NCBI GenBank assembly: GCA_022833215.1
Contig: JAIPUZ010000081.1
Location: 1 to 43,387, forward strand
DNA: 43,387 bases
DNA from: Mesorhizobium sp.
Lineage (GTDB): Bacteria; Pseudomonadota; Alphaproteobacteria; Rhizobiales; Rhizobiaceae
Reading direction: 5' to 3'
The position numbers and the translations under genes are program-made. Under the pieces are notes generated by a model, which worked only from the letters and a program-made list of their open reading frames with translations, had not been told where the DNA came from and did no database searches. Shown piece by piece: positions 15,869 through 29,721 of the stretch; positions within the stretch are counted from its first letter, which is position 1; every line of letters starts with the position of its first letter.

Positions 15869-15892
15869 TTGTCATTTTGCGGAGGAGCAGGG

Positions 15893-17278
15893 ATGACGAC
15901 GCATGATATGCTTTCCGGCATGACACGGGCTGCGACCGCCACCGGCACCCATGAAGGCTATATGCCGGGTTTCGGCAACGACTTCGAAACCGAAGCGCTG
16001 CCGGGCGCGCTGCCACAGGGGCAGAACAGCCCCCAGAAATGCAACTACGGGCTTTATGCCGAGCAGCTTTCGGGCACCGCGTTCACTGCTCCGCGCGGCC
16101 AGAACGAGCGGACCTGGTGCTATCGCATCCGTCCGTCGGTGAATCACACCGGCCGCTTCAGCCCGATCGACGTGCCCTACTGGAAGACCGCCCCGGACGT
16201 CGCGGCGCATGACCCGCGCGGGGGCAACATCACGAGCCTCGGCCAGTATCGCTGGGATCCGATACCGCTTCCCGGCCCCGGGGAGAACCTGACGTGGATA
16301 ACCGGCATGCGCACCATCACCACGGCGGGCGATGTCAACATTCAGGTCGGCATGGCAAGCCATGTCTATCTGGTCACCCGTTCGATGCAGGATGAATACT
16401 TCTTCTCGGCCGACAGCGAGCTTCTGATCGTGCCGCAGGAGGGGCGGCTGCGCTTCTGTACGGAACTCGGCGTCATCGACCTCGAACCGAAGGAGGTCGC
16501 AATCATTCCGCGCGGCCTCGTCTACCGCGTCGAGGTGCTGGAAGGGTCCTGCCGGGGTTTCGTCTGCGAGAACTACGGCCAGAAATTCGACCTGCCGAAC
16601 CGCGGGCCGATCGGGGCCAACTGCCTGGCGAACCCGCGCGATTTCAAAATCCCCGTCGCGGCCTTCGAGGATCGCGAGGTGCGCTCGCGCGTGGTCATCA
16701 AGTGGTGCGGTCAGTTCCACGAGACATGGATAGGTCATTCGCCGCTGGATGTGGTGGCCTGGCACGGCAACTATTGCGCCTGCAAATACGACCTGCGCAC
16801 ATATGCCCCGGTGGGCGCGGTCCTTTTCGACCATCCCGATCCCTCGATCTTCACCGTTCTGACCGCGCCCTCGGGGCAGGAGGGGACAGCGAATATCGAC
16901 TTCGTGCTGTTCCGCGAGCGCTGGATGGTGGCCGAGCACAGCTTCCGCCCGCCCTGGTATCACAAGAACGTCATGTCCGAGCTGATGGGCAACATCTACG
17001 GCGTCTACGATGCCAAGCCGCAGGGCTTCGCTCCCGGGGGCATCAGCCTGCACAACTGCATGCTTCCCCACGGCCCCGACCGCGGCGCTTTCGAACATGC
17101 CTCGAACGCAGAGCTGAAGCCCGAAAAGCTGGACGATACCATGTCCTTCATGTTCGAGACCCGTTTTCCCCAGCATCTGACCGAATTCGCTGCCCGCGAA
17201 GCGCCGATGCAACCGGAATATATCGAAGTCTGGCAGAACCTCGGGAAGAAGTTCGACGGCACGCCAGGCGTGAAGTGA
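15893..17278 (+). CDS. hmgA: homogentisate 1,2-dioxygenase
   Basis: A 461-residue non-haem iron dioxygenase that opens the ring of homogentisate to maleylacetoacetate in tyrosine/phenylalanine catabolism. Typical landmarks are [19 protein letters not shown] near the N terminus, [16 protein letters not shown], and the iron-site region [15 protein letters not shown] with its conserved His and Glu. ATG 15893 follows GGAGGAG closely; an earlier in-frame ATG at 15854 overlaps the operators and was rejected. The usual downstream partners (fumarylacetoacetase, maleylacetoacetate isomerase) are absent: the next gene is an unrelated transporter on the other strand, so the pathway has been cut off here or is completed elsewhere. 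Confidence 0.96.
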
Positions 17279-17614: not shown

Positions 17615-19351
17615 CTACTCGGCGGCTCTGTTCAGGTGTTCCTCGCTTGCCAACGCGGTCCAGGCGTCGAATTGCGACAGGAAGACCCGGCCGGTGAGCT
17701 CGCTCAGGAAATGCGAGGTCTCGAGCCGGTCCATCACCGGGCCCTTGACCTCGGAAAGGTGCAGCCGCACGCCCATGTCCTTGAGCCGCCGGTTGATCGC
17801 CTCGAGGCTTTCCAGCGCCGAGAAATCCACCTCGTTCACGGCCGAGAACATCAGCACCACGTCGGTGATGCCGCAACCCTCGGTCACGCGGCTCTGGATC
17901 AGGTCCTCGAGGAAGCGGGCGTTTACGAAATAGAGGCTCTCGTCCACCCGCAGGGTCAGGAGGTGCGGCCGGGTGTCCACCTTGTGCCGCCGCACGTTGC
18001 GGAAATGCTGGGTGCCGGGCACCAGCCCCACCTCGGCCACGTGCGGGCGCGAGGTCTTGTAGAGGTGCAGAAGGACCGAGATCGCCACGCCGCTGGCCAC
18101 GCCGGTTTCCACGCCCATCAGCAGGGTCAGGACGATCGTCGCCGCGACGGCGGTGAAATCGGCCCTGGAATAGCCCCAGGTCTTCTGCAGGATCGACAGG
18201 TCCACGAGGCTGAGCACCGCGACGATGATCGTGGCCGCCAGCGTCGCGGTCGGCAGGTAATGGACCAGCGGCGTCAGGAACAGCGAGGCGAAGAGCAGCC
18301 CCAGCGCGGTGAAGGCGCCGGCGGCCGGGGTCTCGGCGCCCGCGTCGAAATTGACGACCGAGCGCGCGAAGCCACCCGTGACCGGGTAACCCCCGGTGAA
18401 GGCGGCCCCGAGATTGGCCGCGCCCAGCCCGATCAGTTCCTGGTCGGGGTCGATCCGCTGGCGCTTCTTCGCGGCGAGCGTCTGTGCGACCGAGATCGAT
18501 TCGACGAAACCGATGATCGAGATCAGGATCGCCGGCACCAAAAGCGCGCCCAGAAGGTTCGGCGCGAAGGCGGGCAGCGTCAGCGGCGGCAGGCCCTGCG
18601 GCACCTCGCCCACGATCCTGACACCCCGCGCGTCGAGCCCCAAGGCCCAGACCGCCAGCGTCGTCACAACCACGGCGGCCACCGGGCCGGCCTTGGTCAG
18701 AACGTCCGCCATCAGCGGCGACAGACCCATGCGCCGCAGCGCCGGCTTGAGGTTCTTGCGCACCCAGAACAGGAAGGCGGTCGCGGCCACGCCGATCACG
18801 AGGGTGATCCAGTTCACCTGGTCCAGATGCGCGAAGATCGAGCCCAGCATCTGCGGCAGGGTGTGCCCGTGGGCCGAGACCCCAAGAATGTGCTTGAGCT
18901 GGCTGGTGGCGATCAGGATGCCAGAGGCGGTGATGAAACCCGCGATCACCGGGTGCGACAGGAAGTTCGCAAGGAACCCCAGCCGGAACACGCCCAGGAG
19001 AACGAGGAACCCGCCCGACAGGAAGGCCAGCGTCAGGGCGGCCACCGCGTAGCCCGCCGTGCCCTGATCGGCCACCTGCCCCACGGCGCTGGCGGTCAGG
19101 AGCGAGACCACGGCCACCGGCCCCACCGCCAGCGCCCGGCTGGTGCCGAAGATCGCATAGAGGATGATCGGCGCGATCGAGGCGTAGATCCCGGCCTGCG
19201 CCGGAAGCCCGGCAAGAAGCGCGTAGGCCAGAGATTGCGGGATCAGCATGATCGTCACGATCACCGCGGCGATCATGTCGTTGGAAAAGGCGGTCCGGTC
19301 ATAGGTGCGACCCCAGTCGAGGATCGGCAGATAGCGGCGGAGCGTGGTCAT
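17615..19351 (-). CDS. SulP family anion transporter with STAS domain
   Basis: A 578-residue protein. About 11-14 hydrophobic segments occupy residues 20-430, including MIAAVIVTIMLIPQSLAYALLAGLP, the SulP signature region, and VESISVAQTLAAKKRQRIDPDQELIGLGAAN. A soluble STAS domain follows (DIVLMFSAVNEVDFSALESLEAI-like, residues ~455-560). SulP proteins move sulfate, bicarbonate or other anions across the inner membrane. It is the last gene of the minus-strand sulfur operon, 131 nt after the SQR fusion. Sulfate or sulfite export of the oxidation products would fit the context, but direction and substrate are inference. Confidence 0.9.
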   Translation of the reverse strand: MTTLRRYLPILDWGRTYDRTAFSNDMIAAVIVTIMLIPQSLAYALLAGLPAQAGIYASIAPIILYAIFGTSRALAVGPVAVVSLLTASAVGQVADQGTAGYAVAALTLAFLSGGFLVLLGVFRLGFLANFLSHPVIAGFITASGILIATSQLKHILGVSAHGHTLPQMLGSIFAHLDQVNWITLVIGVAATAFLFWVRKNLKPALRRMGLSPLMADVLTKAGPVAAVVVTTLAVWALGLDARGVRIVGEVPQGLPPLTLPAFAPNLLGALLVPAILISIIGFVESISVAQTLAAKKRQRIDPDQELIGLGAANLGAAFTGGYPVTGGFARSVVNFDAGAETPAAGAFTALGLLFASLFLTPLVHYLPTATLAATIIVAVLSLVDLSILQKTWGYSRADFTAVAATIVLTLLMGVETGVASGVAISVLLHLYKTSRPHVAEVGLVPGTQHFRNVRRHKVDTRPHLLTLRVDESLYFVNARFLEDLIQSRVTEGCGITDVVLMFSAVNEVDFSALESLEAINRRLKDMGVRLHLSEVKGPVMDRLETSHFLSELTGRVFLSQFDAWTALASEEHLNRAAE

Positions 19352-19482
19352 CGTCTTGGTCCTGGAAATGGGACGATCAGAGCGGGTTCACCCTGATCGT
19401 CCGGTCGTGGCCCGACAGGGAGGTGCCGAGACCGTCGGTTCGCAGCGGCCGGGACGGTCGCCGGATGCTGGAGCGGAGCCGG

Positions 19483-21165
19483 CTATTCCGCCGCCCCGAC
19501 CTTGATCGGCTCGGGTTGCGCCAGCCATTCGCGGCCCTTCAGCATCGCCTTCCAGTAGATCGGCGGCAGCATCCTCTCCTTCAGGAACCAGGCCGCGCGC
19601 GAGGGCTTGGTGCCATCCAGCAGGATCTTCGGGAAGGACGGCTTCAGCACCCCGCCATAGCCGAATTCGGCCAGCACGATCTTGCCGCGCTCCACCGTCA
19701 GCGGGCAGGAGCCGTAGCCGTCGTAAGCGGCAACCGGGCTGCGCCCCTCGATATCGGCCACAATGTTGTCGGCCACCGTCGGCGCCTGCTTGCGCGCGGC
19801 GGCGGCAGTCTTGGCATTGGGCGCGTTCATCACGTCGCCAAGTGACCAGATGTTCTCGTAGGTCTTGTGGCGCAGGGTGGCCTGGTCGACGTCCACCCAA
19901 CCGGCGGCATCGGCCAGTGGCGAGACGCGGATGAAATCGGGCGCGACCTGCGGCGGGCAGACGTGGATCATGTCGAAATCGACCGTCACCTCGGCCGGCT
20001 CGGTGTCCGGCCTGGCCACCTTGAAGGTCACCTTCTTCGCCGCGCCGTCGATGGCCACGAGGTTGTGGAAAAAGTTCAGCGTCGCGTCGTATTTCTCAAC
20101 GTATTTCATCAGTGCCGGGACATACTCCTTGACTCCGAAGAGCACGCCACCGGCGTTCATGAACTGGATGTCGATATTCTTCAGCACGCCGCGGCGATGC
20201 CAGGCGTCGCCCGACAGATACATCGCCTTCTGCGGGGCGCCCGCGCATTTGATCGGCATCGGCGGCTGGGTAAAGAGCGCCCGGCCCGCCCTCATCTCCC
20301 GAACCAGTTGCCAGGTGTAGGGCGCGAGATCGAAGCGGTAGTTCGAGGTCACGCCATTGCGCCCGAGCGTTTCGGGCAGGCCCTCGACGGCGTCCCAGTC
20401 CAGCTTGAGCCCCGGCGCGACGACCAGCCGGTCGTATTTGACCACCCGGCATCCGTCGAGGATCACGGCGTCGTTCTTCGGCTCGAAGGCGGCCACGGCA
20501 GCCTTGATCCATTTCACGCCGGCCGGGATCAGCGAGGCCATCGTGCGGGCGGTCTCGTCCGGCTCGAACACGCCGGCGCCGACCAGCGTCCAGCCGGGCT
20601 GGTAGTAGTGCACGTCGGCCGGGTCGATTATGGCGACCGACAGGTCCGACTTGCGGCGCAACAGGCTGGCGGCGGTGGCGATACCCCCGGCCCCGCCGCC
20701 GACGATGACCACGTCGAACTTCGCGTCGCCCGTGTCCGTCGGCGTCCTGCCGCCATTGGCGATGCGCCGCGCCACGCCGGACATGTCGTAACCGGCGGCC
20801 TTGGTGGCGGCGAGGATTTCGGGCAGCGGGCGCTTCTTCGCCTCGTGCAGCGACCAGAGCGTGGCCGAGCGCGTGCCGGTGCGGCAATAGCCGAGGACCG
20901 GCCGCGGCAGGTCCTTGAGCGCCGCGCCGAAGGCCTCGACATCCTCGTCACGCACCATGCCCGACTGAACTGGCACATAGGCCACTTCCAGTCCTGCCTT
21001 CTTCGCCGCCGTTTCGATCTCTTCGAAGGTCGGCTGGTCGGGGCCCTCGCCGTCTGGACGGTTGCAGATGATGGCCTTGAACCCCGTCTCCTTGATGGCG
21101 TCGATCTCGTCCGGCGTGATCTGCGGAGTGACCGAGAATTTGTCCGTAATCTTCTTGATGTCCAT
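19483..21165 (-). CDS. bifunctional DUF442 (phosphatase/rhodanese-like) - sulfide:quinone oxidoreductase fusion
   Basis: A 560-residue two-domain protein. Residues 1-~125 are a DUF442 (beta-lactamase hydrolase-like) domain with the loop YCRTGTRS (Cys94). Residues ~150-560 are a flavoprotein of the sulfide:quinone oxidoreductase type related to mitochondrial SQOR: FAD motif DVVIVGGGAGGIATAASL, the PIKCAGAPQKAMYL motif with redox Cys307, PLADAAGWVDVD and the C-terminal DGYGSCPLTVERGKIVLAE. It should oxidise H2S to sulfane sulfur and reduce the quinone pool at the inner membrane; the N-terminal domain may accept the persulfide. The second SQOR cysteine, in a GDC context, is Val445 here (SLGDVMN), while Cys403 occurs in HVCPPQ. 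The start ATG at 21165 has GAGGAG upstream; an in-frame opening beyond it was excluded. Confidence 0.9.
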   Translation of the reverse strand: MDIKKITDKFSVTPQITPDEIDAIKETGFKAIICNRPDGEGPDQPTFEEIETAAKKAGLEVAYVPVQSGMVRDEDVEAFGAALKDLPRPVLGYCRTGTRSATLWSLHEAKKRPLPEILAATKAAGYDMSGVARRIANGGRTPTDTGDAKFDVVIVGGGAGGIATAASLLRRKSDLSVAIIDPADVHYYQPGWTLVGAGVFEPDETARTMASLIPAGVKWIKAAVAAFEPKNDAVILDGCRVVKYDRLVVAPGLKLDWDAVEGLPETLGRNGVTSNYRFDLAPYTWQLVREMRAGRALFTQPPMPIKCAGAPQKAMYLSGDAWHRRGVLKNIDIQFMNAGGVLFGVKEYVPALMKYVEKYDATLNFFHNLVAIDGAAKKVTFKVARPDTEPAEVTVDFDMIHVCPPQVAPDFIRVSPLADAAGWVDVDQATLRHKTYENIWSLGDVMNAPNAKTAAAARKQAPTVADNIVADIEGRSPVAAYDGYGSCPLTVERGKIVLAEFGYGGVLKPSFPKILLDGTKPSRAAWFLKERMLPPIYWKAMLKGREWLAQPEPIKVGAAE

Positions 21166-21179
21166 TGCTCGCGTACTCC

Positions 21180-22085
21180 TCAGAACTTGTTTGCCGGAAT
21201 CTTGAAGTAGCTGTGGCCGTCGCCCTCTGGCTCGGGCAGCCGACCACCGCGAAGGTTGACCTGGAGCGCCGCGAGCATCCGGTCGGGCAGCGGCAGGGTC
21301 TTGTCGCGTTCTTTCCGGAGGCGGACGTATTCGTCCTTCGGTCGCCCACCGCCGACATGAATGTTGTTGGCCTTCTGCTCGCCCACGGTGCTTTCCCATG
21401 CCGGCTCGTCGCGATCCTTCGTGCCGTAGTCATGGCCAATGAAGATGCGGTAGTCGTCAGGGTGGTCGAGGATCGCCATGATGCTGTCGTAAAGCTGGCC
21501 GGCATCGCCGCCGGGGAAATCGGCCCGCGCCGTGCCGGCATCGGGCTGCATCAGCGTGTCATGGGCAAATATCGCGTCGCCCACGACATAGGTGATCGAG
21601 CCCAGCGTATGGCCCGGCGACAGCATCACCTTGACGTCGAGGTTGCCGATCCTGAGGCGGTCGCCATCGGCAAAGAGCCGGTCGAAGTCGGGGTCGACGG
21701 GGAAGGCGTCCGGCATGTTGTAGATCTTGCGCCAGAGCGCAGCGATCTCCCGCGCCTTCTCGCCGATCGCCATCGGCGCGCCCGTTCTCTCCTTCAGCCA
21801 GGCCGCCGCCATGAAGTGATCGGCGTGGGGGTGCGTATCGAGGATCCATTCCAGTTCGAGCCCCTCCCGCTCGACGTAGTCCAGCGCCCACTGGGCATGG
21901 TCGAACGCGGTGGAGAACGATCGCGGATCGAACTGCTGGACGATGTCGATGAGCGCGCATTTCTTCGTCTCTTCGTCGACGCAGATATACTGGCAGCTAC
22001 CGGTATCGGGCTCGTAAAAGCCGACGACGCGCGGGCTGCCGGCGCCGCGCGAAGGTGACACCCTGCTGATGATATCCTGGGACAC
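21180..22085 (-). CDS. MBL-fold metallo-hydrolase, ETHE1-like persulfide dioxygenase
   Basis: About 301 residues from the GTG at 22085, which is preceded by GGAGG; an ATG at 22115, directly after the bacterioferritin stop, would add ten residues. The metal motif is THPHADH (His85, His87, Asp89, His90), followed by SPGHTLGSITY, FAHDTLMQPDAG and GHDYG, the ETHE1/Blh subgroup pattern with PDAGTARADFPGGDAGQLYDSI. The end VNLRGG...KIPANKF is shared with the second metallo-hydrolase of this operon. Likely role: iron-dependent oxidation of glutathione persulfide to sulfite and glutathione, downstream of SQR. It lies 14 nt upstream of the SQR fusion gene. Confidence 0.85.
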   Translation of the reverse strand: MSQDIISRVSPSRGAGSPRVVGFYEPDTGSCQYICVDEETKKCALIDIVQQFDPRSFSTAFDHAQWALDYVEREGLELEWILDTHPHADHFMAAAWLKERTGAPMAIGEKAREIAALWRKIYNMPDAFPVDPDFDRLFADGDRLRIGNLDVKVMLSPGHTLGSITYVVGDAIFAHDTLMQPDAGTARADFPGGDAGQLYDSIMAILDHPDDYRIFIGHDYGTKDRDEPAWESTVGEQKANNIHVGGGRPKDEYVRLRKERDKTLPLPDRMLAALQVNLRGGRLPEPEGDGHSYFKIPANKF

Positions 22086-22115
22086 TCCTCTGTTCCTCCG
22101 ATGTTTCTTGCGCAT

Positions 22116-22606
22116 TCAGCCTTCGGCGCCGGAAGCGCCGAGGAAGCGGACAGCATAGACGGCTTCTCCGAGCCTTTCGATCAGGTCGAGCTGGGTCTCG
22201 AGCCAGGCCTTGTGGCCTTCCTCGTCGAGCACAATCTGCTCAAAGAGCAGCCGCGAACCGATGTCACCTTCGGCGCCGGCTTCCTTCGCCGCCTTTGTAT
22301 ATTTGTATAGAAGCGGATCGCGTTCTCTTCGTCCTTCAGATCGGCCTCGAACATCTCGCGCAACGATGTCGCGCGCACCGGTGCCTTCTCGAAGGCGACC
22401 TCGGGCTCGCCGCCGAGGAAGAGGATGCGGTCGAGGAAACGGTCCGAATGTTCCGTCTCTTCGGCCTGCTCCTGCCGCATCATCTCGGCCAGGCCCGGCA
22501 GCCCCCAGTCGTCCAGAACCTGCGCGTGCAACTGATACTGATGAGTGGCCGTGATCTCCATCTGGAGCGCGGTGTTCAGGTTCCGAATGGTCTGCTTCTG
22601 TTCCAT
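22116..22606 (-). pseudogene. bacterioferritin, disrupted by an 8-bp tandem duplication
   Basis: The N-terminal part, MEQKQTIRNLNTALQMEITATHQYQLHAQ... through EADLKDEENAIRFYT, is a ferritin-like four-helix protein with iron ligands EITATHQYQLH and EQAEETEHSDRF. After codon ~102 the frame goes wrong because TATACAAA occurs twice in tandem (22294-22309 on the plus strand). Removing one copy restores KAAKEAGAEGDIGSRLLFEQ, then VLDEEGHKAWLETQLDLIE..., ending at TGA 22116 with a normal ~160 residues. As read, translation would instead end at 22181 with a basic 141-residue nonsense tail and lose the C-terminal helices that hold ligands DEEGH. Either a true mutation, a phase-variable site or a base-calling problem. 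Confidence 0.88.
22294..22309. repeat. 8-bp tandem duplication (TTTGTATA x2) inside the bacterioferritin gene
   Basis: Two exact adjacent copies of TTTGTATA (TATACAAA on the coding strand). The unit length is not a multiple of three, so it shifts the reading frame; deletion of one unit gives an uninterrupted ferritin. Confidence 0.95.
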
Positions 22607-22646
22607 TTTCCTTCCTCCTGTCGGTCGTCTCGGGTAGCCGCGGGGC

Positions 22647-23594
22647 TCAGAGCTTGTTGACCGGCACCTTGAGCATCTTGTCGCCGTGCTGGTCGGTCGG
22701 GATGTGGCCGGCGCGGATGTTCACCTGGATCGACGGGATGATAAGCGTGGGCATCTTCAGCGTCTTGTCGCGCTCGGTGCGGATGCGGATGAACTCCTCG
22801 CGGGTCTTGCCGCCGCCCACGTGGATGTTGTTCGCCTTTTCCTCGGCGACGGTGGTCTCCCACTTCACCTCGCGCCCGCCGGGCATGTAGTCGTGGCACA
22901 TGAAGAGCCGCATCTCGCCGGGCAGGCTGAGCACCTTCTGGATGCTGTCATAAAGCGTGCCGGCATCGCCGCCGGGGAAGTCGGCCCGCGCCGAGCCGCC
23001 GTCGGGCATGAAGAGCGTGTCGCCCACGAAGGCCGCATCGCCGATGACATGGGTCATGCAGGCGGGCGTGTGGCCCGGCGTGTGCATGGCAAAGGCCGTC
23101 ATGTTGCCGATCTTGTAGGTCATGCCGTCGGTGAACAGCGCATCGAACTGCGAGCCGTCGCGCTGGAACTCGGTGCCCTCGTTGAAGATCTTGCCGAAGA
23201 CCTCCTGCACGATCTTGATGTTCTCGCCGATGCCGATCTTGCCGCCCAGCTTTTCCTGGATGTAGGGCGCGGCCGAGAGATGGTCGGCATGGGCGTGGGT
23301 CTCGATGATCCACTCGAGCTTCAGGCCCTGGCGCTCGATCTCGGAGATCAGCATGTCGGCATGCTCGAAGGTGATCCGGCCGGCGGCATAGTCGATGTCC
23401 ATCACGCTGTCGATGATGGCGGCCGCGTTCGAGGTCGGGTCCTTGACGATGTAGCTGATCGTCGCCGTGGCCTCGTCGTAGAAGCCCTGAATCTCGGGCT
23501 TCACGCTCATGTCCACCGGGTAATCGGCGATCGGCGTGGCGATGGCGTCGGCCATCTTTTGATCGTGGGCTTGAATCTGGTCTTGCTTGGTCAT
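22647..23594 (-). CDS. MBL-fold metallo-hydrolase, ETHE1/Blh-like persulfide dioxygenase
   Basis: A 315-residue paralogue of the metallo-hydrolase at 21180-22085. The metal motif THAHADH lies at residues 99-105; TPGHTPACMTHV, VGDTLFMPDGGSARADFPGGDAG and CHDYMPGG follow, and the end is VNIRAG...KVPVNKL. The start ATG at 23594 has AAAGGAG upstream; the in-frame opening further upstream overlaps the DUF6691 gene and is not coding. Probably also oxidises low-molecular-weight persulfides, perhaps with a different partner or substrate. It lies 28 nt after the DUF6691 gene and 40 nt before the bacterioferritin gene. Confidence 0.85.
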   Translation of the reverse strand: MTKQDQIQAHDQKMADAIATPIADYPVDMSVKPEIQGFYDEATATISYIVKDPTSNAAAIIDSVMDIDYAAGRITFEHADMLISEIERQGLKLEWIIETHAHADHLSAAPYIQEKLGGKIGIGENIKIVQEVFGKIFNEGTEFQRDGSQFDALFTDGMTYKIGNMTAFAMHTPGHTPACMTHVIGDAAFVGDTLFMPDGGSARADFPGGDAGTLYDSIQKVLSLPGEMRLFMCHDYMPGGREVKWETTVAEEKANNIHVGGGKTREEFIRIRTERDKTLKMPTLIIPSIQVNIRAGHIPTDQHGDKMLKVPVNKL

Positions 23595-23622
23595 GTCGTG
23601 AACTCCTTTGTACTGGTCCGCG

Positions 23623-24063
23623 TCAAGCCGAGGCCGACCGCGGCAGGATGGATTGCCCCTTGAGAATGCGGGCCAGAGCAAGGCCCAGGCCGACGGCGCC
23701 CAGGAACAGCGCCACCTCCCAGCGGCCCATGCCAAGGGCCGGGATGGCCGCGCCCGGGCAGAACCCGGCGATGCCCCAGCCGATGCCGAACAGGGCCGAG
23801 CCACCGACAAGGCGCGCGTCGATCACGTTCGAATTGGGCACCTGGAAGCGGTCCTCGAACAGCGGCGTCGCGCGCCGCCAGACCAGCCGGTAGCCGATGA
23901 AGGTGACGGCGACGGCGCCGCCCATGACGAAGGCGAGGCTCAGGTCCCAGGTGCCGGCGATGTCGAAGAAATTCAGCACCTTGGCCGGGTTCATCATGCC
24001 CGAAATCGCGATCCCGAGACCGAAGACTAGGCCCGTGGCCCATGCGTAGATCAGTTTCATCAT
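23623..24063 (-). CDS. DUF6691 family membrane protein (YeeE/YedE half, PmpB-like)
   Basis: A 146-residue membrane protein with about four hydrophobic segments; N-terminal KLIYAWATGLVFGLGIAISGMMNPAKVLNF-type sequence and a late GWGIAGFCPGAAIPALGMG with Cys102. Together with the gene just upstream it forms the two-part version of YeeE, a thiosulfate/sulfur-compound transporter family. ATG 24063 (a second ATG follows) lies 1 nt after the upstream stop. Role in moving thiosulfate or persulfide-related sulfur is inferred from family and operon. Confidence 0.85.
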   Translation of the reverse strand: MMKLIYAWATGLVFGLGIAISGMMNPAKVLNFFDIAGTWDLSLAFVMGGAVAVTFIGYRLVWRRATPLFEDRFQVPNSNVIDARLVGGSALFGIGWGIAGFCPGAAIPALGMGRWEVALFLGAVGLGLALARILKGQSILPRSASA

Positions 24064-24064
24064 G

Positions 24065-24496
24065 TCAGGCTCCGATGACGTGGCGGATGACGAAGACGGT
24101 GATGGCGGCCGTGGCCATGAAGGTGGGCACCGCGACGAGCGAGCGCAGCGAGAGGCGCGAGAGCCCGCAGACCCCGTGGCCCGAGGTGCAGCCCGAGCCG
24201 AAGCTGGCGCCAAGCCCTACGATCACGCCTCCAATGGCGATTATCAGCGGGCTGACGGGCACGTCCAGCGCCGGCCAGGCGCCGGTGGCCAGGAAGATCA
24301 AGCCGGGTGCCATGACCATGCCCAGCACCAGCGTGGCGCGCCAGGCGAATTCCGGACAGCGCTCGGGAAAGATCAGCCCCGACAGGATGCCGGTCGCACC
24401 GAAGATGCGGCCCAGGCCCAGCATCAGCAGCACGGCGGCGAGCCCGATCAAGAGGCCGCCCCCGAAAGAGGCAAAGGGAGTGAAAGCCGTTTCCAT
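24065..24496 (-). CDS. YeeE/YedE family transporter (PmpA-like)
   Basis: A 143-residue membrane protein with four to five hydrophobic segments. The signature GSGCTSGHGVCGLSR (Cys103 and Cys110) is the conserved cysteine segment through which YeeE-type channels pass thiosulfate. It pairs with the DUF6691 gene starting 1 nt downstream. The ATG lies 1 nt after the stop of the DUF2892 gene, so translation is coupled. Confidence 0.88.
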   Translation of the reverse strand: METAFTPFASFGGGLLIGLAAVLLMLGLGRIFGATGILSGLIFPERCPEFAWRATLVLGMVMAPGLIFLATGAWPALDVPVSPLIIAIGGVIVGLGASFGSGCTSGHGVCGLSRLSLRSLVAVPTFMATAAITVFVIRHVIGA

Positions 24497-24497
24497 C

Positions 24498-24713
24498 TCA
24501 GCACTCCCGGCAGGTCTTGAGGCCGATCAGCCGATAGAGCGGGCAGAAGCGGAACGCCGCTGTCGCCAGCATCACCAGCCCGACCGCGCCTGCGCCCCAC
24601 TTCCAGACTGCGGCTTCCATCAGCTGCAGGCCGCCGAAGAAGGCGAGGTAGAGCAGCACCAGCCCGAGCGCCGCGCGCACCACCCGGTCAAGGGTTCCGA
24701 CATTGGTGTTCAT
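24498..24713 (-). CDS. DUF2892 (YgaP-type transmembrane) protein, first gene of the sulfur operon
   Basis: 71 residues: MNTNVGTLDRVVRAALGLVL..., two transmembrane segments (~residues 12-29 and 36-56) and the end FRFCPLYRLIGLKTCREC with three cysteines. This matches the inner-membrane domain that in E. coli YgaP is fused to a rhodanese. GGAGG is 5 nt before the ATG at 24713; the longer in-frame ATG at 24731 would put that Shine-Dalgarno inside the gene. The palindrome at 24770-24782 lies 57 nt upstream. Confidence 0.85.
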   Translation of the reverse strand: MNTNVGTLDRVVRAALGLVLLYLAFFGGLQLMEAAVWKWGAGAVGLVMLATAAFRFCPLYRLIGLKTCREC

Positions 24714-24769
24714 GGTGTCCTCCGATTTCAAAGCTGGAGGACAGATAGAAGTTTGATCAGCGCTCTACA

Positions 24770-24782
24770 GTGACAATGTCAC
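24770..24782. promoter_or_regulatory. palindromic operator GTGACAATGTCAC upstream of the sulfur operon
   Basis: A perfect 13-bp palindrome with arms GTGAC/GTCAC around AAT, 57 nt upstream of the DUF2892 start. The same arms occur at 26022-26034. The TGAC/GTCA core resembles half-sites of Crp/Fnr-type regulators, and such a regulator is encoded next door, but the 3-nt centre is one shorter than in classical Fnr/Dnr boxes. Confidence 0.7.
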
Positions 24783-24837
24783 CCAACGGCGATTTTCTCG
24801 ATGGACCGCTTCGACGGCCCCTTGAAACGGGCCCGTC

Positions 24838-25503
24838 TCAGCGGCTTGCCGCCAGCCTTCTCAGCCCCGCCTTGTCTGTCAGCGTGATGCGCCCACGAGA
24901 TTGTTCGACCAGGCCGCGTTTATGGAAATCGTTCAGGATGCGCGAGATCACCTCGCGCGCGGTCCCAAGCTCCTTGGCCAGATCATGATGGGTGGCAGAG
25001 ATTTCCTTGAAGTCTCCGGCAAGGGCCAGAAGCCGTTCCGCCAGCCGCACGTCCATCCGGCCGAAGGCAACATCGTCGATGACGCGCAGAAGGTCGATCA
25101 GCCGCCGGGAATAGGCGGCAAAGACGAAGCTGCGAAAATCGGGTTCCTCGCCGGCCAGTTGGTCGAACGCCGTGCGCGGCAGATTGACGACGGTGACATC
25201 TGTCTCTGCGATCCCCTCGGCGTTGTAGGCTTCCTCGGCCAACATGCAGGCGGTGGTCAGCACGCAGCTTTCGCCTGCCTCCACCCGGTAGAGCACGATC
25301 TCCCGCCCCCGGTCCGAGCTTTGCGAGACGCGGATCGTGCCGTCATGCAGGAACAACAGGCCATCGGGCACCTTGGCCGGACCGAAGACCAGCGCCCCCT
25401 CGGGATAATGCCGCACCCGAGCCACCTGCAACAGCCGGTCGCGCACCCTGCGGGGCAGTTTCCGCGTGCCGGTGAAACGCTCCGTCCAGTCGCCAACGCT
25501 CAT
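24838..25503 (-). CDS. Crp/Fnr family transcriptional regulator, candidate persulfide/redox sensor
   Basis: A 221-residue protein with an N-terminal cNMP-binding-like beta barrel and a C-terminal winged helix (HHDLAKELGTAREVISRILNDFHKRGLV). It has exactly two cysteines, Cys80 and Cys86, in GESCVLTTACML, and lacks the N-terminal Fnr iron-sulfur cysteines and the Crp cAMP-binding arginine context. This Crp/Fnr subgroup often accompanies sulfur genes, and a thiol switch between the two cysteines is a plausible signal input (inference). It overlaps the Rrf2 gene stop by 4 bp (ATGA). The operator at 24770-24782 lies between its stop and the operon it probably controls. Confidence 0.88.
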   Translation of the reverse strand: MSVGDWTERFTGTRKLPRRVRDRLLQVARVRHYPEGALVFGPAKVPDGLLFLHDGTIRVSQSSDRGREIVLYRVEAGESCVLTTACMLAEEAYNAEGIAETDVTVVNLPRTAFDQLAGEEPDFRSFVFAAYSRRLIDLLRVIDDVAFGRMDVRLAERLLALAGDFKEISATHHDLAKELGTAREVISRILNDFHKRGLVEQSRGRITLTDKAGLRRLAASR

Positions 25504-25970
25504 TTCGCTCTCCGCACCGGCGCCACAATCCCGGCCTCCAGGGGCGCAATGCGCGCCAGCAGGTCGTTCCGGTTGGCGGCGATCTCGTCCAAAGTGAGAT
25601 CGTCAAGCTCCGCCATGAAGGCACGGGTCGCTTCCTGAAGGGCACGGGACAGGCGGCATATGCCGATCAGGGGGCAGGTGTTCCGGTCAGGGTTGAAGGA
25701 TTCCACCAGGTCGAGCGGCCCCTCCGTGAGCCGGACCACATCACCGATCACGATCTCCTCGGCGGGCCGGGCAAGGGTGAAGCCGCCGCCGCGGCCCCGG
25801 ATCGTCCGAAGGTAACCGGCCCGCCCCAACTCGTGCACGATCTTGACGATGTGCGGCCGGGCCAGACCGTGCACCCGCACGACATCGTCAACACGCACGC
25901 GGTCCGGCGCCTTGAGGGCGACAAGCTGAAGAGTTCGCAGGGCGTAGTTGGTGTAGGCCGTGAGCTTCAT
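25500..25970 (-). CDS. Rrf2 family transcriptional regulator, NsrR-like with two cysteines
   Basis: A 156-residue protein: MKLTAYTNYALRTLQLVAL, the winged helix ARPHIVKIVHELGRAGYLRTIRGRGGGFTLARP and the dimer/cluster region NTCPLIGICRLSRAL. Only Cys99 and Cys105 are present; the third cysteine common in NsrR (usually in a VECF-type context) is Ser91 here. Known relatives sense nitric oxide or iron-sulfur status with a cluster, so a two-cysteine form may bind a cluster differently or sense thiols. It heads a two-gene unit with the Crp/Fnr gene and is divergent from the peroxiredoxin gene across the second operator. Confidence 0.9.
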   Translation of the reverse strand: MKLTAYTNYALRTLQLVALKAPDRVRVDDVVRVHGLARPHIVKIVHELGRAGYLRTIRGRGGGFTLARPAEEIVIGDVVRLTEGPLDLVESFNPDRNTCPLIGICRLSRALQEATRAFMAELDDLTLDEIAANRNDLLARIAPLEAGIVAPVRRAK

Positions 25971-26021
25971 GAGCTTCGGGATAGTATTGTTCCATTTTCA
26001 GTACAACTTTTTTCGAATTGA

Positions 26022-26034
26022 GTGACTTTGTCAC
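26022..26034. promoter_or_regulatory. palindromic operator GTGACTTTGTCAC between rrf2 and peroxiredoxin genes
   Basis: A perfect 13-bp palindrome with the same GTGAC/GTCAC arms as the site at 24770-24782, followed by an extra GTCAC half-site (26036-26040). It lies 52 nt upstream of the Rrf2 start and 71 nt upstream of the peroxiredoxin ATG, so it may act on both divergent promoters. Confidence 0.7.
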
Positions 26035-26104
26035 TGTCACGACCCGGCGACAGGCCATATCTGGGGGCGCGAACCATGACAGTTTCCTAAGGAGGACAGG
26101 TCGA

Positions 26105-26737
26105 ATGAGTCTGCACATCGGCGATATCGCCCCCGATTTCGAAGCCGACACCACCAAGGGCCAAATCCGGTTCCACGACTGGGCCGGCGATTCCTGGGTG
26201 TTCCTCTTCAGCCATCCGGCCGATTTCACGCCCGTCTGCACCACCGAGATGGGCCGCACCGCGCAACTGGCCGAGGCGTTTGCCAAGCGCAACGTCAAGC
26301 CGCTGGGGCTGTCGACCGACACGGTCGAGGAGCACGTGAAATGGATCGAGGACGTCAACGACACCCAGAACACGGTGCTCGACTTCCCCATCGTCGCCGA
26401 CCCGGAGCTGAAGGTGGCGAAGCTCTACGACATGATCCACCCGGGCGAAAGCACGACCGAGGCGGTGCGCACGGTCTTCATCATCGACCCGGACAAGAAG
26501 ATCCGCCTGACCATGACCTATCCGATGAGCGTCGGGCGCAACTTTGACGAGATCCTGCGGGTGATCGACGCACTTCAAACGGCGGATGCCAACAAGGTGG
26601 CGCTTCCCGCCGACTGGCGTCCGGGTGGCGAGGCGATCATCCCGCCCTCGATCCCGAACGAGAAGGCGAAGGATCTGTTCCCGCAGGGCTGGGAGGAAGT
26701 GCGACCCTACCTGCGCAAGGTCAAGCTGAGCGCATAG
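26105..26737 (+). CDS. 1-Cys peroxiredoxin (Prx6 type)
   Basis: A 210-residue thiol peroxidase. HPADFTPVCTTEMG holds the peroxidatic Cys45, the only cysteine in the protein, so it is a true 1-Cys enzyme that must be recycled by an external thiol. The C-terminal domain with GGEAIIPPSIPNEKAKDLFPQGW is typical of Prx6. ATG 26105 follows AAGGAGGACAGG; an in-frame ATG at 26018 would translate the operator and was rejected. It removes H2O2 or organic peroxides and, given its neighbours, could also handle persulfide-related oxidants (inference). Confidence 0.93.
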   Translation: MSLHIGDIAPDFEADTTKGQIRFHDWAGDSWVFLFSHPADFTPVCTTEMGRTAQLAEAFAKRNVKPLGLSTDTVEEHVKWIEDVNDTQNTVLDFPIVADPELKVAKLYDMIHPGESTTEAVRTVFIIDPDKKIRLTMTYPMSVGRNFDEILRVIDALQTADANKVALPADWRPGGEAIIPPSIPNEKAKDLFPQGWEEVRPYLRKVKLSA

Positions 26738-26810
26738 CCATGCGAACGTCCGGTCGGCGGTTCCGGCCGCCGCCCGGATCGGATGATGACACGCTGAATG
26801 GCACACGACG

Positions 26811-27080
26811 ATGTCGGTCTCGGAAACCCTTCCCGATCAACCTCCCAATGCCCGTTCGGACTGGCGTTGGCATCTTGGCGTCGTCGCCTTCGGCGTGGCC
26901 TGGTGGGTGGTCTACCACCAGCTGATCCCATTTTCGGAATGGATCACGTCGCTGGTCCCGGTGGATCGCCACAGCCACACCGGCGAAGCGATCGCCTTTT
27001 CTCGCCCGATCTGCTCGCATGCGCGGTCAGCCGGAGGCTTGGCGCGGACCCCGTCGCGGACAGTGTCTGGGCTTGGCTGA
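26811..27080 (+). pseudogene. truncated permease (COG0701/DUF318-like), N-terminal end only
   Basis: The ORF starts MSVSETLPDQPPNARSDWRW, then one membrane segment GVVAFGVAWWVVYHQLIPF and VDRHSHTGEAIAF, which matches the beginning of a ~350-residue multi-spanning permease of the COG0701 group. After codon 63 (~27000) similarity ends and the frame runs into unrelated sequence until TGA at 27078-27080. In another frame 27001-27181 shows codon use typical of a real gene end (SPDLLACAVSRRLGADPVAD... to RPDWPSRNFKE, stop 27179-27181), which I do not recognise. So a deletion seems to have fused two broken genes. Confidence 0.6.
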
Positions 27081-27184
27081 ACGGGCAGGTGCGGTGCGGC
27101 GCGAAGCACTTCGATTTCGCAAGGATCGGGCCGACGACCGGAATCCGCCCGGACTGGCCATCTCGGAATTTCAAGGAGTGAACA

Positions 27185-28594
27185 ATGCTGGATGGACTGA
27201 CTGCCGAGACGCTGGCGCGATTGCAATTCGCGTTCACGGTCTCGTTTCACATCATCTTCCCGGCCTTCTCGATCGGGCTGGCGAGCTATCTCGCGGTGCT
27301 GAACGCTCTATGGCTGAAAACCCGGGATGAGACCTATCTCAACCTGTTCAACTACTGGAAGAAGATCTTCGCCGTCGCCTTCGGCATGGGTGTGGTCTCG
27401 GGCATCGTGATGTCCTACCAGTTCGGCACCAACTGGTCGGTGTTTTCCGACAAGGCCGGGCCGATCGTCGGGCCGCTCATGGCTTATGAGGTGCTGTCGG
27501 CCTTCTTCCTCGAGGCGGGCTTTCTGGGCATCATGCTGTTCGGCCGCGAGCGTGTCGGCGAGGGCCTGCACATGTTCGCGACTGCGATGGTGGCGGTCGG
27601 CACGCTGATGTCGGCCACCTGGATCCTGGCGGTGAACAGCTGGATGCAGACACCGCAGGGCTATGCCCTGGCCGAGAACGGCCAGTTCGTGCCCGAGGAC
27701 TGGCTGGCGATCATCTTCAACCCGTCCTTCCCCTATAGGCTGGTGCATATGGTGCTGGCGGCCTACCTGACCGTGGCCTTCGTCGTGGCCGCCGTCAGTG
27801 CCTTGCACCTCTTGCGGGATCGGACCGACAAGGAGTCGCGCAAGGCCTTTTCAATGGCCATGTGGATGGCGCTGCTGGTCACGCCGATCCAGATCGTGGC
27901 GGGCGACATGCACGGGATCAACACGCTGGAGCATCAGCCGGTGAAGGTCGCCGCGATGGAGGGCCATTTCGACAGCCACGGCGACAACCAGCCGCTGGCC
28001 CTGTTCGGCATACCGAACGAGCAGGAGGGCCGGCTGGACTACGCCATCGAGGTTCCCTATCTCGGCTCGCTCATCCTGACGCACACCCTGCACGAGCAGA
28101 TCGCGGGCCTGAATGAGTTTCCAAAGGACGAATGGCCGCCGGTGGCGATCGTCTTCTTCAGCTTCCGGATCATGGTGGCCATCGGTTTTGCGATGCTGGG
28201 TCTGGGGCTATGGGGGGCCTGGGCGCGGTGGCGCGGCAAGCTCTATGATGCGCCGTGGCTGCATCGCGCGGCCGTCCTGATGGGTCCTGCCGGCTTCATC
28301 GCGGTTCTCGCGGGCTGGATCACGACCGAGGTTGGGCGCCAGCCCTACACCGTCTATGGCCTGCTGCGCACGGCTGACAGCCTCGCGCCGGTGGATGCGC
28401 CGGCGGTGGCGGCCTCGCTCATGGCCTTCGTGGTCGTCTACTTCTTCATCTTCGGCGCCGGGACCTTCTACATCCTGCGCATGATGAACAAGCGGCCTGC
28501 AACGCCGAGGCTCGGCCTGCGCGACGGCCCGATCCGGACGGCCGGCATTACGCCAGCGCCGCAGGTCGAGCCCGACTTCATCCCCGGTGAATGA
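27185..28594 (+). CDS. cydA: cytochrome bd-type quinol oxidase subunit I (cyanide-insensitive type)
   Basis: A 469-residue integral membrane protein with ~9 transmembrane segments. FTVSFHIIFPAFSIG contains the haem-ligand His22; AYEVLSAFFLEAGFLGIMLFG carries the conserved acidic pair of the proton path; GRQPYTVYGLLRTADS is the C-terminal signature. The region between helices 6 and 7 is short (short Q loop), as in CioA of Pseudomonas. The complex oxidises ubiquinol and reduces O2 without haem-copper chemistry, so it resists cyanide and sulfide. Followed 12 nt later by cydB. Next to SQR/persulfide genes it would let quinol made from sulfide be re-oxidised in the presence of H2S. Confidence 0.95.
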   Translation: MLDGLTAETLARLQFAFTVSFHIIFPAFSIGLASYLAVLNALWLKTRDETYLNLFNYWKKIFAVAFGMGVVSGIVMSYQFGTNWSVFSDKAGPIVGPLMAYEVLSAFFLEAGFLGIMLFGRERVGEGLHMFATAMVAVGTLMSATWILAVNSWMQTPQGYALAENGQFVPEDWLAIIFNPSFPYRLVHMVLAAYLTVAFVVAAVSALHLLRDRTDKESRKAFSMAMWMALLVTPIQIVAGDMHGINTLEHQPVKVAAMEGHFDSHGDNQPLALFGIPNEQEGRLDYAIEVPYLGSLILTHTLHEQIAGLNEFPKDEWPPVAIVFFSFRIMVAIGFAMLGLGLWGAWARWRGKLYDAPWLHRAAVLMGPAGFIAVLAGWITTEVGRQPYTVYGLLRTADSLAPVDAPAVAASLMAFVVVYFFIFGAGTFYILRMMNKRPATPRLGLRDGPIRTAGITPAPQVEPDFIPGE

Positions 28595-28606
28595 GGAGAG
28601 ACAGCA

Positions 28607-29611
28607 ATGCTCTTCGATCTTGCCTTCATCTGGGCCGGTCTCATCGCCTTCGCGGTGTTGGTCTATGTCATCCTCGACGGCTTCGACCTGGGGATCGGGA
28701 TCCTGTTCCCGTTCGGGCGGTCCGAGAAGGAACGCGACCTGATGATGAACTCGGTCGCGCCCGTGTGGGACGGCAACGAAACCTGGCTCATCCTGGGGGG
28801 AGGCGGTTTGTTCGCCGTCTTCCCGCTGGCCTATGCCGTGGTCATGCCGGCGCTTTACATGCCGATCATCCTGATGCTGCTGGCGCTGATCTTCCGGGGC
28901 GTGTCCTTCGAATACCGCTGGCGGACGAGACGCTGGAAAGGTGTCTGGGACATGGCCTTCTTCGGCGGGTCCTTCGTCGCCGCGTTCTGTCAGGGCATCG
29001 CCCTCGGCGCCCTGGTTCAGGGCATCGAGGTCGAAGGTCGCGCCTATGCAGGCGGCTGGTTCGACTGGCTGACGCCTTTCTCGGTGCTGACCGGCTTCGC
29101 AGTCGCGGTCGGCTACGCGCTGCTCGGTGCGACCTGGCTGGTCCTGAAGACCGAGGGAGAGCTTCACATCCGGATGCGTCGCTTCGCCTGGTATCTGGGC
29201 GCCGCAACGCTCGGCCTGATCGGATTGGTCAGCCTCATCACGCCATTTCTCGAGCCGGTCTACTTCGAGCGCTGGTTCAACCTGCCCGGCAGCCTGTGGT
29301 CGATGGTCGTGCCGCTGCTGATGCTTGGCCTTGCCTGGTCGTTCTTCACCGGACTTAACGACGGCAAGGATCTGCAGCCGTTCCTATCGGCACTGGGCTT
29401 CTTCATCGTCAGCTTCATCGGGATCGGCATCAGCTTCTACCCGATGATGGTTCCGCCGTCGCTGACGATCTGGGAGGCGGCGGCGCCGGACGCGAGCCTT
29501 GCCTTCGCGCTGGTCGGAGCCGTGATCCTGGTGCCGATCATCCTGGCCTATACCGCCTACGCCTACTGGGTGTTCCGCGGAAAGCTGGACCCGTCGGAGG
29601 GGTATCATTGA
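28607..29611 (+). CDS. cydB: cytochrome bd-type quinol oxidase subunit II
   Basis: A 334-residue membrane protein with ~8 transmembrane segments; N-terminal FAVLVYVILDGFDLGIGILFP and the WDGNETWLILGGGGLFAVFPLAY motif are diagnostic of CydB/CioB. It forms the heterodimer with CydA in the inner membrane. The stop overlaps the ATG of a tiny DUF2474-like ORF (TGATG), so the three genes are translationally coupled. Confidence 0.95.
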   Translation: MLFDLAFIWAGLIAFAVLVYVILDGFDLGIGILFPFGRSEKERDLMMNSVAPVWDGNETWLILGGGGLFAVFPLAYAVVMPALYMPIILMLLALIFRGVSFEYRWRTRRWKGVWDMAFFGGSFVAAFCQGIALGALVQGIEVEGRAYAGGWFDWLTPFSVLTGFAVAVGYALLGATWLVLKTEGELHIRMRRFAWYLGAATLGLIGLVSLITPFLEPVYFERWFNLPGSLWSMVVPLLMLGLAWSFFTGLNDGKDLQPFLSALGFFIVSFIGIGISFYPMMVPPSLTIWEAAAPDASLAFALVGAVILVPIILAYTAYAYWVFRGKLDPSEGYH

Positions 29612-29721
29612 TGACCCGGTCCCCGATTTGGAAACCCCTCGTCTGGTTCGCCCTGATCTACGGGGCGAGCCTTGCCGCGCTGGGAGTCGTGGCCCTGGCA
29701 ATCCGCGCCGTGATCGGGTGA
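29611..29721 (+). CDS. DUF2474-like small membrane subunit of the bd oxidase (CydX-like role)
   Basis: 36 residues: MTRSPIWKPLVWFALIYGAS... followed by a single transmembrane helix ending LAIRAVIG. The W-K-P...W-F...Y-G-A-S pattern is that of DUF2474 peptides encoded after cioAB. The ATG overlaps the cydB stop. Such peptides stabilise the oxidase. It is the last gene before the prophage. Confidence 0.8.
   Translation: MTRSPIWKPLVWFALIYGASLAALGVVALAIRAVIG

Follow-up and report, generated by a model that had tools for sequence, protein, structure and literature searches.

A probable sulfide/persulfide defence regulon in which a CIO-type bd oxidase and sulfide oxidation genes share a predicted Crp/Fnr operator

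SQR feeds quinone just as sulfide blocks the haem-copper oxidases, and bd-type oxidases form a class known to resist sulfide; coordination between the two has usually been inferred from separate stress responses. In E. coli, sulfide-resistant respiration is carried out by cytochrome bd (Forte 2016, as cited in an excerpt of PMC8148161), and the same excerpt names CstR, SqrR/BigR, FisR and CsoR as sulfide regulators, and for E. coli also SoxRS and OxyR. In A. baumannii, sulfide induces cydAB, SQR/PDO and bacterioferritin. In that bacterium, SQR/PDO are controlled by FisR and yeeE-yedE-pdo2 by BigR in separate operons, cydAB and bfrB are given as further induced genes, and exposure to sulfide leads to persulfidation of a Crp-like regulator that is described as resembling E. 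coli Crp and as having an unknown effect (excerpt of PMC7315123). The bigR-blh operon of Agrobacterium and Xylella combines DUF442 and ETHE1-type dioxygenase activities in a sulfide defence that protects aerobic respiration (excerpt of PMC5823870). In Alishewanella sp. WH16-1, the bd oxidase of the cydE-cydAB locus has a linked regulator and contributes to sulfide resistance; this regulator is a GbsR-type repressor, sulfate is the inducer, and a sulfide-oxidation operon is not mentioned in the abstract (PMC6096048).

The block described here lies in a window of 43,387 nucleotides, the whole stretch of DNA that was analysed, and is probably a horizontally acquired sulfide/persulfide defence regulon whose CIO-type oxidase would be co-regulated with the oxidation pathway. 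Pfam and NCBIfam scans of the window ORFs (Table 1) recovered all gene families that an earlier note on this DNA had named, close to where it had placed them. The note had overlooked, however, a frameshifted bacterioferritin gene: its reading frame breaks, the second half lies in another frame (three-frame reading), and the ORF scores 67.7 bits against TIGR00754 (bfr), under the cut-off of 125.55. SulP was matched in 76 of 80 loci from relatives, drawn as the 80 best of at least 588 confirmed matches. The block was also said to sit between IS debris and a prophage, which is correct for the prophage side, whereas hmgA separates it from the IS debris.

Table 1. Features of the block and its neighbourhood, with positions in the window.
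Feature	Position	Strand	Match or remark
DDE_5 transposase fragment	14433..14741		
hmgA	15854..17278		Between DDE_5 fragment and block
SulP-family anion permease with STAS domain	17615..19351	-	Pfam Sulfate_transp 4.6e-107, STAS
DUF442 sulfurtransferase-like domain fused to type II (human SQOR-like) SQR	19483..21165	-	TIGR01244, SQR
Blh/ETHE1-type persulfide dioxygenase 2	21180..22058	-	NF040641, 423.7 bits, dioxygenase half
Bacterioferritin, N-terminal part	22181..22606	-	Ferritin 1.2e-22
Blh/ETHE1-type persulfide dioxygenase 1	22647..23594	-	NF040641, 371.3 bits, dioxygenase half
DUF6691 YeeE-like membrane protein	23623..24063	-	PF20398 1.9e-39 (longer ORF scanned, to 24213)
YeeE/Sulf_transp half-transporter	24065..24496	-	PF04143 1.6e-07
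DUF2892/YgaP-like transmembrane protein, sulfur operon gene 1	24498..24713	-	PF11127 1e-23
Predicted Rrf2 operator, sulfur side	24731..24753	-	13/18 match, 16 bp after Crp site
Predicted Crp/Fnr operator, sulfur promoter	24770..24782	.	GTGACAATGTCAC
Crp/Fnr regulator	24838..25503	-	C80-X5-C86 in cyclic-nucleotide cassette region
Rrf2 regulator, NsrR/RirA-like	25500..25970	-	Two cysteines
Predicted Rrf2 operator, rrf2/cio side	25987..26009	-	Weak, 12/18
Predicted Crp/Fnr operator, between rrf2 and prx	26022..26034	.	GTGACTTTGTCAC
1-Cys-type peroxiredoxin	26105..26737	+	AhpC-TSA, 1-cysPrx_C, NF009668
CioA, bd oxidase subunit I	27185..28594	+	Short Q loop; PF01654 5.4e-169
CioB, bd oxidase subunit II	28607..29611	+	PF02322 1.1e-103
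DUF2474 small subunit-like peptide	29611..29718	+	PF10617 30.3 bits, cut-off 26.6 (scan from 29608)
Prophage tail module	from 30180		Right neighbour of block

Acquisition of the block from Rhodobacteraceae-type bacteria is indicated by the SQR phylogeny and by a break in synteny at tRNA-Thr, which upholds the acquisition proposed earlier. Besides being foreign, the island is a mosaic. A search for direct repeats marking the island ends revealed no copy of the tRNA end among the 20 largest of at least 60 families. Contamination was ruled out by murA on the same contig, which is the sole copy in the genome and shows 87-88% identity to six drawn same-genus genomes; the contig therefore belongs to the genome.

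Judged by its sequence, the SQR fusion is a type II (human SQOR-like) enzyme, for which sulfide-dependent quinone reduction is predicted. It matches human SQOR with E=6.6e-96, and its C94, C307 and C487 are invariant in 12 of 12 aligned sequences. The catalytic cysteines of a type II SQR are represented by C307 and C487, which align with human SQOR cysteines that we take to be C201 and C379 (by position count). Dioxygenase 2 matches PDB 4ysk, presumably a persulfide dioxygenase (entry name: beta-lactamase domain protein), with E=2.8e-70 and human ETHE1 (4chl) with E=1.6e-13. Both metallo-beta-lactamase-fold proteins carry the metal motif THxHADH of the ETHE1/Blh family in their translations (THAHADH and THPHADH), and the best NCBIfam match of each is the dioxygenase half of Blh. 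Neither qualifies as bifunctional Blh, as they reach 424 and 371 bits against a curated cut-off of 625 (NF040641), and DUF442 is carried by the SQR chain rather than a dioxygenase chain.

In our model, SQR would transfer electrons from H2S to quinone and produce sulfane sulfur, which the DUF442 domain and the two dioxygenases would convert into sulfite/thiosulfate, while the YeeE, DUF6691 and DUF2892 proteins and the SulP permease would transport sulfur species across the membrane. The quinol would be reoxidised by CioAB, a member of the sulfide-resisting oxidase class, permitting respiration under sulfide, and peroxide and iron would be handled by Prx (and once Bfr). The same genes could be read as serving energy gain instead of defence, i.e., sulfide-dependent lithoheterotrophy from SQR via quinone to CioAB, because SQR and a quinol oxidase form a complete short electron path and both dioxygenases and the permease are present. 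We consider this unlikely, as the scanned ORFs of the block include no match to a Sox or Dsr family, and peroxiredoxin and bacterioferritin are more in keeping with a stress response. Defence and energy gain are compatible with each other.

The bd oxidase is classified from its sequence as cyanide-insensitive (CIO-type). About 60 residues are skipped at the Q loop in the alignment with E. coli CydA, a DUF2474 partner is encoded, and GRQP is retained together with the His, Met and Glu positions that correspond to the haem ligands. The earlier note had made its proposal depend in part on whether cioAB also accompanies the sulfur operon in other genomes, and such co-occurrence was found. In a genome-contig sample that favours close relatives, since the 80 best of at least 588 confirmed matches were taken, a bd oxidase is close by in 14 of the 67 loci having at least 7 kb upstream. 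The same holds for 5 of 13 family genomes carrying the fusion and for 3 of 19 loci in a class-wide draw around the regulator, which may overlap the genome-contig sample. The binomial probabilities of 1.2e-7 (5/13) and 6e-15 (14/67) assume a 1% chance per locus and ignore relatedness. Overall, the fused SQR has a bd oxidase no further than about 10 kb away in 18 of 77 testable loci, with 12 changes on an SQR tree that was built without L044, L045, L046, L050, L051 and L087 (the last on the same contig as L033). The linkage recurs in varied arrangements and with non-orthologous bd oxidases. However, 59 of the 77 loci have no bd oxidase nearby, and of the 69 places in the family with a CioA of 63% identity or more, at least 7 are known to be linked; calling the unit “self-contained,” as was done before, is therefore too strong. 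An independent-pairs test of rrf2 against cio found on average four of five pairs in agreement and none opposed, too few for significance.

Both halves of the block share the palindrome GTGAC-N3-GTCAC, a predicted Crp/Fnr operator, which stands before the sulfur operon and before the rrf2/prx-cioAB promoter. Its GTGA-N5-TCAC spacing is one base under the classical CRP spacing. Five exact copies exist in the 4.55-Mb genome and two of them are located in the block; the others (window position 43293, C96 and C106) probably arose by chance, as their cores are G+C-rich and overlap long open frames. Within 1.91 Mb of loci, 50 exact sites were counted (L033 and L087, one record, contributing twice) against a shuffle mean of 2.35. 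Of the 43 SQR loci that bear crp, 41 have the palindrome no more than 300 bp after that gene; allowing one mismatch, it lies beside crp or DUF2892 in 18 of the 19 class-wide loci (12 exact). It follows crp in 27 loci without flanking cio or rrf2 (>60% identity). Upstream of rrf2, all 10 loci of the first set that have both crp and cio carry the site, as do none of three with crp but no cio and none of three with cio but no crp; L191, where crp, rrf2 and cio are all present and the site is absent, turns 10/10 into 10/11. Rrf2 was dismissed as the reader of this palindrome, since the 27 crp loci carry the site without rrf2 above 60% identity and since it is missing before rrf2 in L034, L098 and L102, where crp was not found.

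The window shares the palindrome with nine other divergent loci. Elsewhere the site stands before canonical cydAB in L082, cydAB-sqr in L145, prx in L190 and, with one mismatch, cioA in L192. In L080, an exact site lies before an rrf2-like match (36% identity) in a flank without cio. At up to one mismatch, the palindrome occurs in 0 of 20 upstream regions of control cioA genes, picked by coordinates as distant from an SQR fusion. It is missing by cioA in eight linked loci, within 600 bp in L034, L040, L041, L045, L046 and L084 and in the intergenic region in L191 and L194, as well as before cydA in L146. The presence of the operator in both halves suggests common control. Alternatively, cioAB and the sulfur operon might merely co-travel as chance neighbours in a mobile island, which would agree with its foreign, mosaic nature, with the 59 unlinked loci and with the eight linked loci devoid of the site by cioA. 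This explanation is disfavoured and, in our judgment, very improbable, because the linkage recurs in varied arrangements with non-orthologous oxidases and because the operator is shared among divergent loci but absent at the 20 control cioA genes away from the fusion.

The local Crp/Fnr protein is the probable binding partner of the operator. Its recognition helix AREV(I/V)SR is conserved in 47 of 47 sequences, and C80 and C86 are found in 46 and 45 of 46 aligned sequences, respectively. This C-X5-C pair is likely a reactive-sulfur sensor. The structure model has a mean pLDDT of 81, and residues 83-92, including the second cysteine, fall below 50, too low for reading the cysteine geometry; Foldseek yielded, among the matches listed, general Crp/Fnr folds. 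The second regulator, Rrf2, has two cysteines, whereas the 15 others of 16 aligned sequences have three, and it thus departs from the three-cysteine pattern of Fe-S Rrf2 proteins (NsrR/RirA/IscR). The earlier description of two cysteine-bearing regulators was borne out. No ArsR (BigR/SqrR) or CsoR (CstR) repressor was matched among 20 scanned ORFs, and with Crp/Fnr and Rrf2 as regulators the block is not a bigR/cst-type sulfide operon. Ordinary FNR control was dismissed, as none of 13 matches to the FNR/FixK box TTGAT-N4-ATCAA (up to two mismatches) falls in the window's three promoter regions.

CIO-type oxidases take their name from cyanide resistance, and the best equivalog matches of the window Rrf2 are NsrR and RirA, both below cut-off. 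Together with the Fe-S-like cysteine triplet of the 15 other Rrf2 proteins, this would fit nitric oxide, cyanide or low oxygen as the common signal, with the sulfur genes being auxiliary to an NO/cyanide-resistant bd oxidase. Such a signal appears doubtful, however: the 27 loci in which the Crp site follows crp without rrf2 (>60% identity) or cio in the flank point to sulfur as the core regulon, the promoter regions are free of FNR/FixK boxes with up to two mismatches, and the block's scanned ORFs gave no match to a flavohaemoglobin, NO reductase or cyanide-degrading family.

In rrf2-bearing loci, the Crp palindrome is accompanied by an Rrf2-like site 16 bp downstream. The mean match to its consensus is 14.2/18 in 13 rrf2 loci and 9.4/18 in 31 loci without rrf2 (p=2.5e-7, relatedness ignored), a comparison that is not fully independent, as the consensus was drawn by eye from both promoter sets. 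By cioA, a Rrf2-like site scores 17/18 in L034, 14/18 in L191 and 13/18 in L194. Some loci without rrf2, namely L044 (14/18) and L066 (13/18), match the consensus as well as rrf2 loci do. The window sites are among the weakest, with the rrf2/cio-side score at the 99th percentile of its own shuffles, and the window Rrf2 has lost a conserved cysteine. In the sulfide defence model, the local Crp/Fnr would bind its palindrome around position -41 of the sulfur promoter and in the middle of the divergent rrf2/prx-cioAB promoter and activate both (class II activation), with sulfide as the presumed inducer. Rrf2, wherever its own site is intact, would repress through that palindrome, which covers the -10 region. 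A wider proposal, which we regard as evenly balanced, is that an undescribed Crp/Fnr branch, with its C-X5-C pair in place of the cyclic-nucleotide cassette, acts as an activator that senses reactive sulfur and reads GTGAC-N3-GTCAC, has captured bd oxidases (CioAB and canonical CydAB) apparently more than once and forms an AND gate with the repressor Rrf2, coupling the oxidation of sulfide to a terminal oxidase that sulfide does not stop.

No description of the Crp/Fnr-operator-cioAB arrangement was found in the open-licence literature searched, and the family of the candidate sulfur sensor lies outside the sulfide regulators named in the excerpt of PMC8148161. The block has the DUF442 and ETHE1-type dioxygenase parts of bigR-blh (excerpt of PMC5823870), but it is SQR and not the dioxygenase that carries DUF442, Crp/Fnr and Rrf2 take the place of the repressor BigR, and a bd oxidase is linked. 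With the E. coli system the block shares a bd oxidase, here as the predicted sulfide-insensitive terminal oxidase; the excerpt (PMC8148161) describes no linkage to an SQR pathway, and the oxidase of the block is CIO-type with a short Q loop and DUF2474. The parts resemble those of the A. baumannii response (SQR, PDO, YeeE, cydAB and ferritin; excerpt of PMC7315123), but here they all sit in a single block, where one operator recurs and the Crp/Fnr is of another type. Carriers of the orthologous block that can be cultured include Aliiroseovarius lamellibrachiae DSM 104669 (L054) and Lentibacter algarum (L063). With one predicted operator ahead of both halves, this compact and mobile block opens the coupling to direct testing in marine Rhodobacteraceae that grow in culture.

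Every gene named in the earlier note, which had read the block as a sulfide detoxification island coupled to a sulfide-resistant bd oxidase, was found. The minus strand encodes, in order, Rrf2, Crp/Fnr, DUF2892, YeeE, DUF6691, dioxygenase 1, bacterioferritin, dioxygenase 2, a DUF442-SQR fusion and SulP, and the plus strand peroxiredoxin (prx), a short ORF, CioA, CioB and DUF2474. The SQR half of the fusion matches human SQOR (E=6.6e-96), and two of its cysteines, which align with the catalytic pair of the human enzyme, are conserved without exception in the 12 fused proteins compared; dioxygenase 2 matches PDB 4ysk and human ETHE1. Compared with E. coli CydA, the CioA of the window is without the long insert in the Q loop, and a second, longer CydA homologue was found in the source genome. 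The frame change in the bacterioferritin ORF reflects either a broken gene or an assembly error; a bacterioferritin match also adjoins dioxygenase 1 in the related loci L033, L044, L080 and L115. The ORF between prx and cioA may be the remnant of a longer gene.

Coordinates of features in the window and, where indicated, in other loci
Feature	Position	Strand	Remark
tRNA-Thr	13946-14020		
MarR-hmgA segment	~15330-17280		
Bacterioferritin ORF	22181-22606	-	frame change mid-gene
Predicted Crp site, exact	24770		
rrf2	25500-25970	-	
Predicted Crp site, exact	26022		
Short ORF separating prx from cioA, membrane-protein-like	26811-27080	+	Pfam scan: no match
Prophage tail module	30180-43387	-	GTA-like tail protein (1321 aa), tape measure, lysozyme-like genes; runs off contig
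Second CydA homologue, source genome	G000:C116 6892-8388		L001, L052; 548-residue open frame
CioAB beside sulfur operon	L046 8509-12349		
cydAB and non-fused SQR	L145 6668-10984		same strand
cydAB and non-fused SQR	L146 8804-13234		same strand

In a quick tree, the SQR of the window nests in a Paracoccaceae/Roseobacteraceae group (SH-aLRT 98), with the best identity, 84%, to Aliiroseovarius lamellibrachiae, to whose CioA that of the window is 88% identical. The source genome comprises 131 contigs (4.55 Mb); the single-copy murA on the window contig shows 87-88% identity to six same-genus genomes, and in none of the four such genomes compared does DNA similarity continue past the 3' end of tRNA-Thr, making this the likely integration point. 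To its right follow a DDE_5 fragment, hmgA, the sulfur/Cio block and the prophage tail module, and the MarR-hmgA segment, which matches Paracoccus plasmids at ~80% DNA identity, is also foreign. The SQR grouping, the end of synteny and the foreign neighbors therefore uphold the earlier proposal that the block was acquired, and the foreign segment exceeds the interval (17615-29721) assigned to it. In the SQR set, L089 and L091 carry identical proteins under record titles of Pimelobacter (Actinomycetota) and Maritimibacter, a probable mis-binning of one MAG.

The linkage of cioAB with the sulfur operon, which the earlier note had proposed to look for in related genomes, recurs. A fused SQR at ≥57% identity was identified in 13 of 199 family genomes (the source genome included in both counts; the fused SQR of G180 is interrupted), and in five of these 13 CioA lies within 10 kb of it. 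In two further genomes, G058 and G054, CioAB adjoins a sulfur operon, but no intact fused SQR is present. L046 retains CioAB beside a sulfur operon whose SQR domain appears internally deleted. In a wider contig sample, made up of the best 80 of at least 588 matches that were confirmed, a CioA/CydA homologue occurs in the retrieved flank of 14 loci, all within the 67 having at least 7 kb upstream; 11 of the 14 exhibit the orthologous, Rrf2-divergent layout, the others being L084, with CioAB directly before SQR, and L068 and L082, with distant CydAB. In a tree built from 91 SQR sequences, linkage holds for 18 of the 77 rows that could be assessed, and its distribution requires 12 changes, each a gain or a loss. 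In L145 and L146, further family loci, cydAB is followed by a non-fused SQR. Because only some of the 69 CioA places at ≥63% identity are known to be linked to sulfur genes (at least seven, with two G192 pieces uncounted and neighborhoods read in part), CioAB is considered to be recruited to these genes rather than dedicated to them.

In relatives, the palindrome GTGAC-N3-GTCAC (extended, TTCAGTGACANTGTCACTGAA), a predicted Crp site, recurs in the spacers that separate rrf2 from prx or from cioA. Across 99 sources, comprising the window, 18 loci from the family and the 80 loci of the wider contig sample (with L033 and L087 representing a single record), 50 exact sites were counted in 1.91 Mb, where mononucleotide shuffles averaged 2.35, and the window contains five sites at ≤1 mismatch vs. 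1.03 expected from dinucleotide shuffles. Two of the five exact sites in the source genome lie in the block, 1.25 kb apart. As eleven other genomes show 4-12 exact sites each vs. 0-4 for a reversed control pattern, the palindrome is enriched, not unique.

Among the best 80 matches of the wider sample, 43 loci have crp upstream of SQR and in the same orientation; in 41 of them a site (≤1 mismatch) follows crp at a distance of ≤300 bp. A zone ten times wider was searched in the remaining 37 loci, and 11 of these have a site. Of 385 genomes in a class-wide draw, 20, among them the source genome, encode this Crp type at a threshold of E 1e-60. In 18 of the 19 other loci (exception, L198) a site with ≤1 mismatch, exact in 12, lies beside crp or DUF2892, and CioAB is nearby in three of the 19. 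For the 16 rrf2 loci of the first set, a site upstream of rrf2 was found in 10 of 10 with crp and cio, in none of three with crp without cio, and in none of three with cio without crp. Two exceptions exist: the class-wide locus L191 has crp, rrf2 and cio with no site by cioA, giving 10 of 11, and L080 carries an exact site before a distant rrf2 match (36%) without cio. Of 20 cioA genes located apart from any SQR fusion, none has a site at ≤1 mismatch, and the site by cioA is also absent in eight linked loci (L034, L040, L041, L045, L046, L084, L191, L194). A site is located 122-134 bp before the first matched bd oxidase residue in L082 (exact), L145 (exact, 131 bp before the cydA match) and L192 (one mismatch), that of L082 within a stop-free stretch which may be an extension of the bd oxidase gene. 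No Crp site precedes the cydA match of L146; in L190, one precedes prx.

A second site, a 23-bp inverted repeat (AASTTATAT-N5-ATATAASTT) predicted to be an Rrf2 operator, starts 16 bp after the Crp site of the sulfur promoter in all 13 rrf2 loci scored (11-16 of 18). Its mean score there is 14.2 vs. 9.4 in 31 loci without rrf2, some of which score equally high (L044, 14; L066, 13). In 10 of 16 loci, the repeat is also present upstream of rrf2, at a distance of 16-17 bp. By cioA it is found in L034 (17), L191 (14) and L194 (13), where the Crp site is absent, and cioAB may therefore be tied in through Rrf2 alone in some loci. The copies in the window are weak, scoring 12 (the 99th percentile of shuffles) and 13, and are among the most degenerate in the set, and its Rrf2 carries a serine in place of the first of three conserved cysteines; the other 15 proteins in the alignment of 16 retain this residue. 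Judged from these sequences, Rrf2 control may be decaying here.

The recognition helix AREV(I/V)SR is present in all 47 aligned Crp/Fnr proteins, and C80 and C86 were found in 46 of 46 and 45 of 46, respectively. This cysteine pair is located in GESCVLTTACML, at the position of the phosphate-binding cassette of CRP proteins. In both window promoters, a -10-like element, identified by eye, lies downstream of the Crp site; the distance between them would place the Crp site near -41, where class II activators bind. In the mechanism proposed, the Crp/Fnr protein would act as an activator sensing reactive sulfur and the quinone circuit would run from SQR to CioAB; the identity of the inducer is the weakest step.

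A cioAB-sulfur linkage with a common operator and a Crp/Fnr-Rrf2 pair was not found in the open-licence literature searched; the individual parts are already known. The portions consulted of two sources name BigR, SqrR, CstR, FisR and CsoR as sulfide regulators, with no Crp/Fnr protein among them (PMC5823870, PMC8148161). In A. baumannii, according to the portion consulted of a further source, a Crp-like protein closely resembling that of E. coli undergoes persulfidation, reportedly with unknown effect, SQR/PDO and yeeE-pdo2 form separate operons under FisR and BigR, and sulfide induces cydAB together with SQR/PDO and bacterioferritin (PMC7315123).
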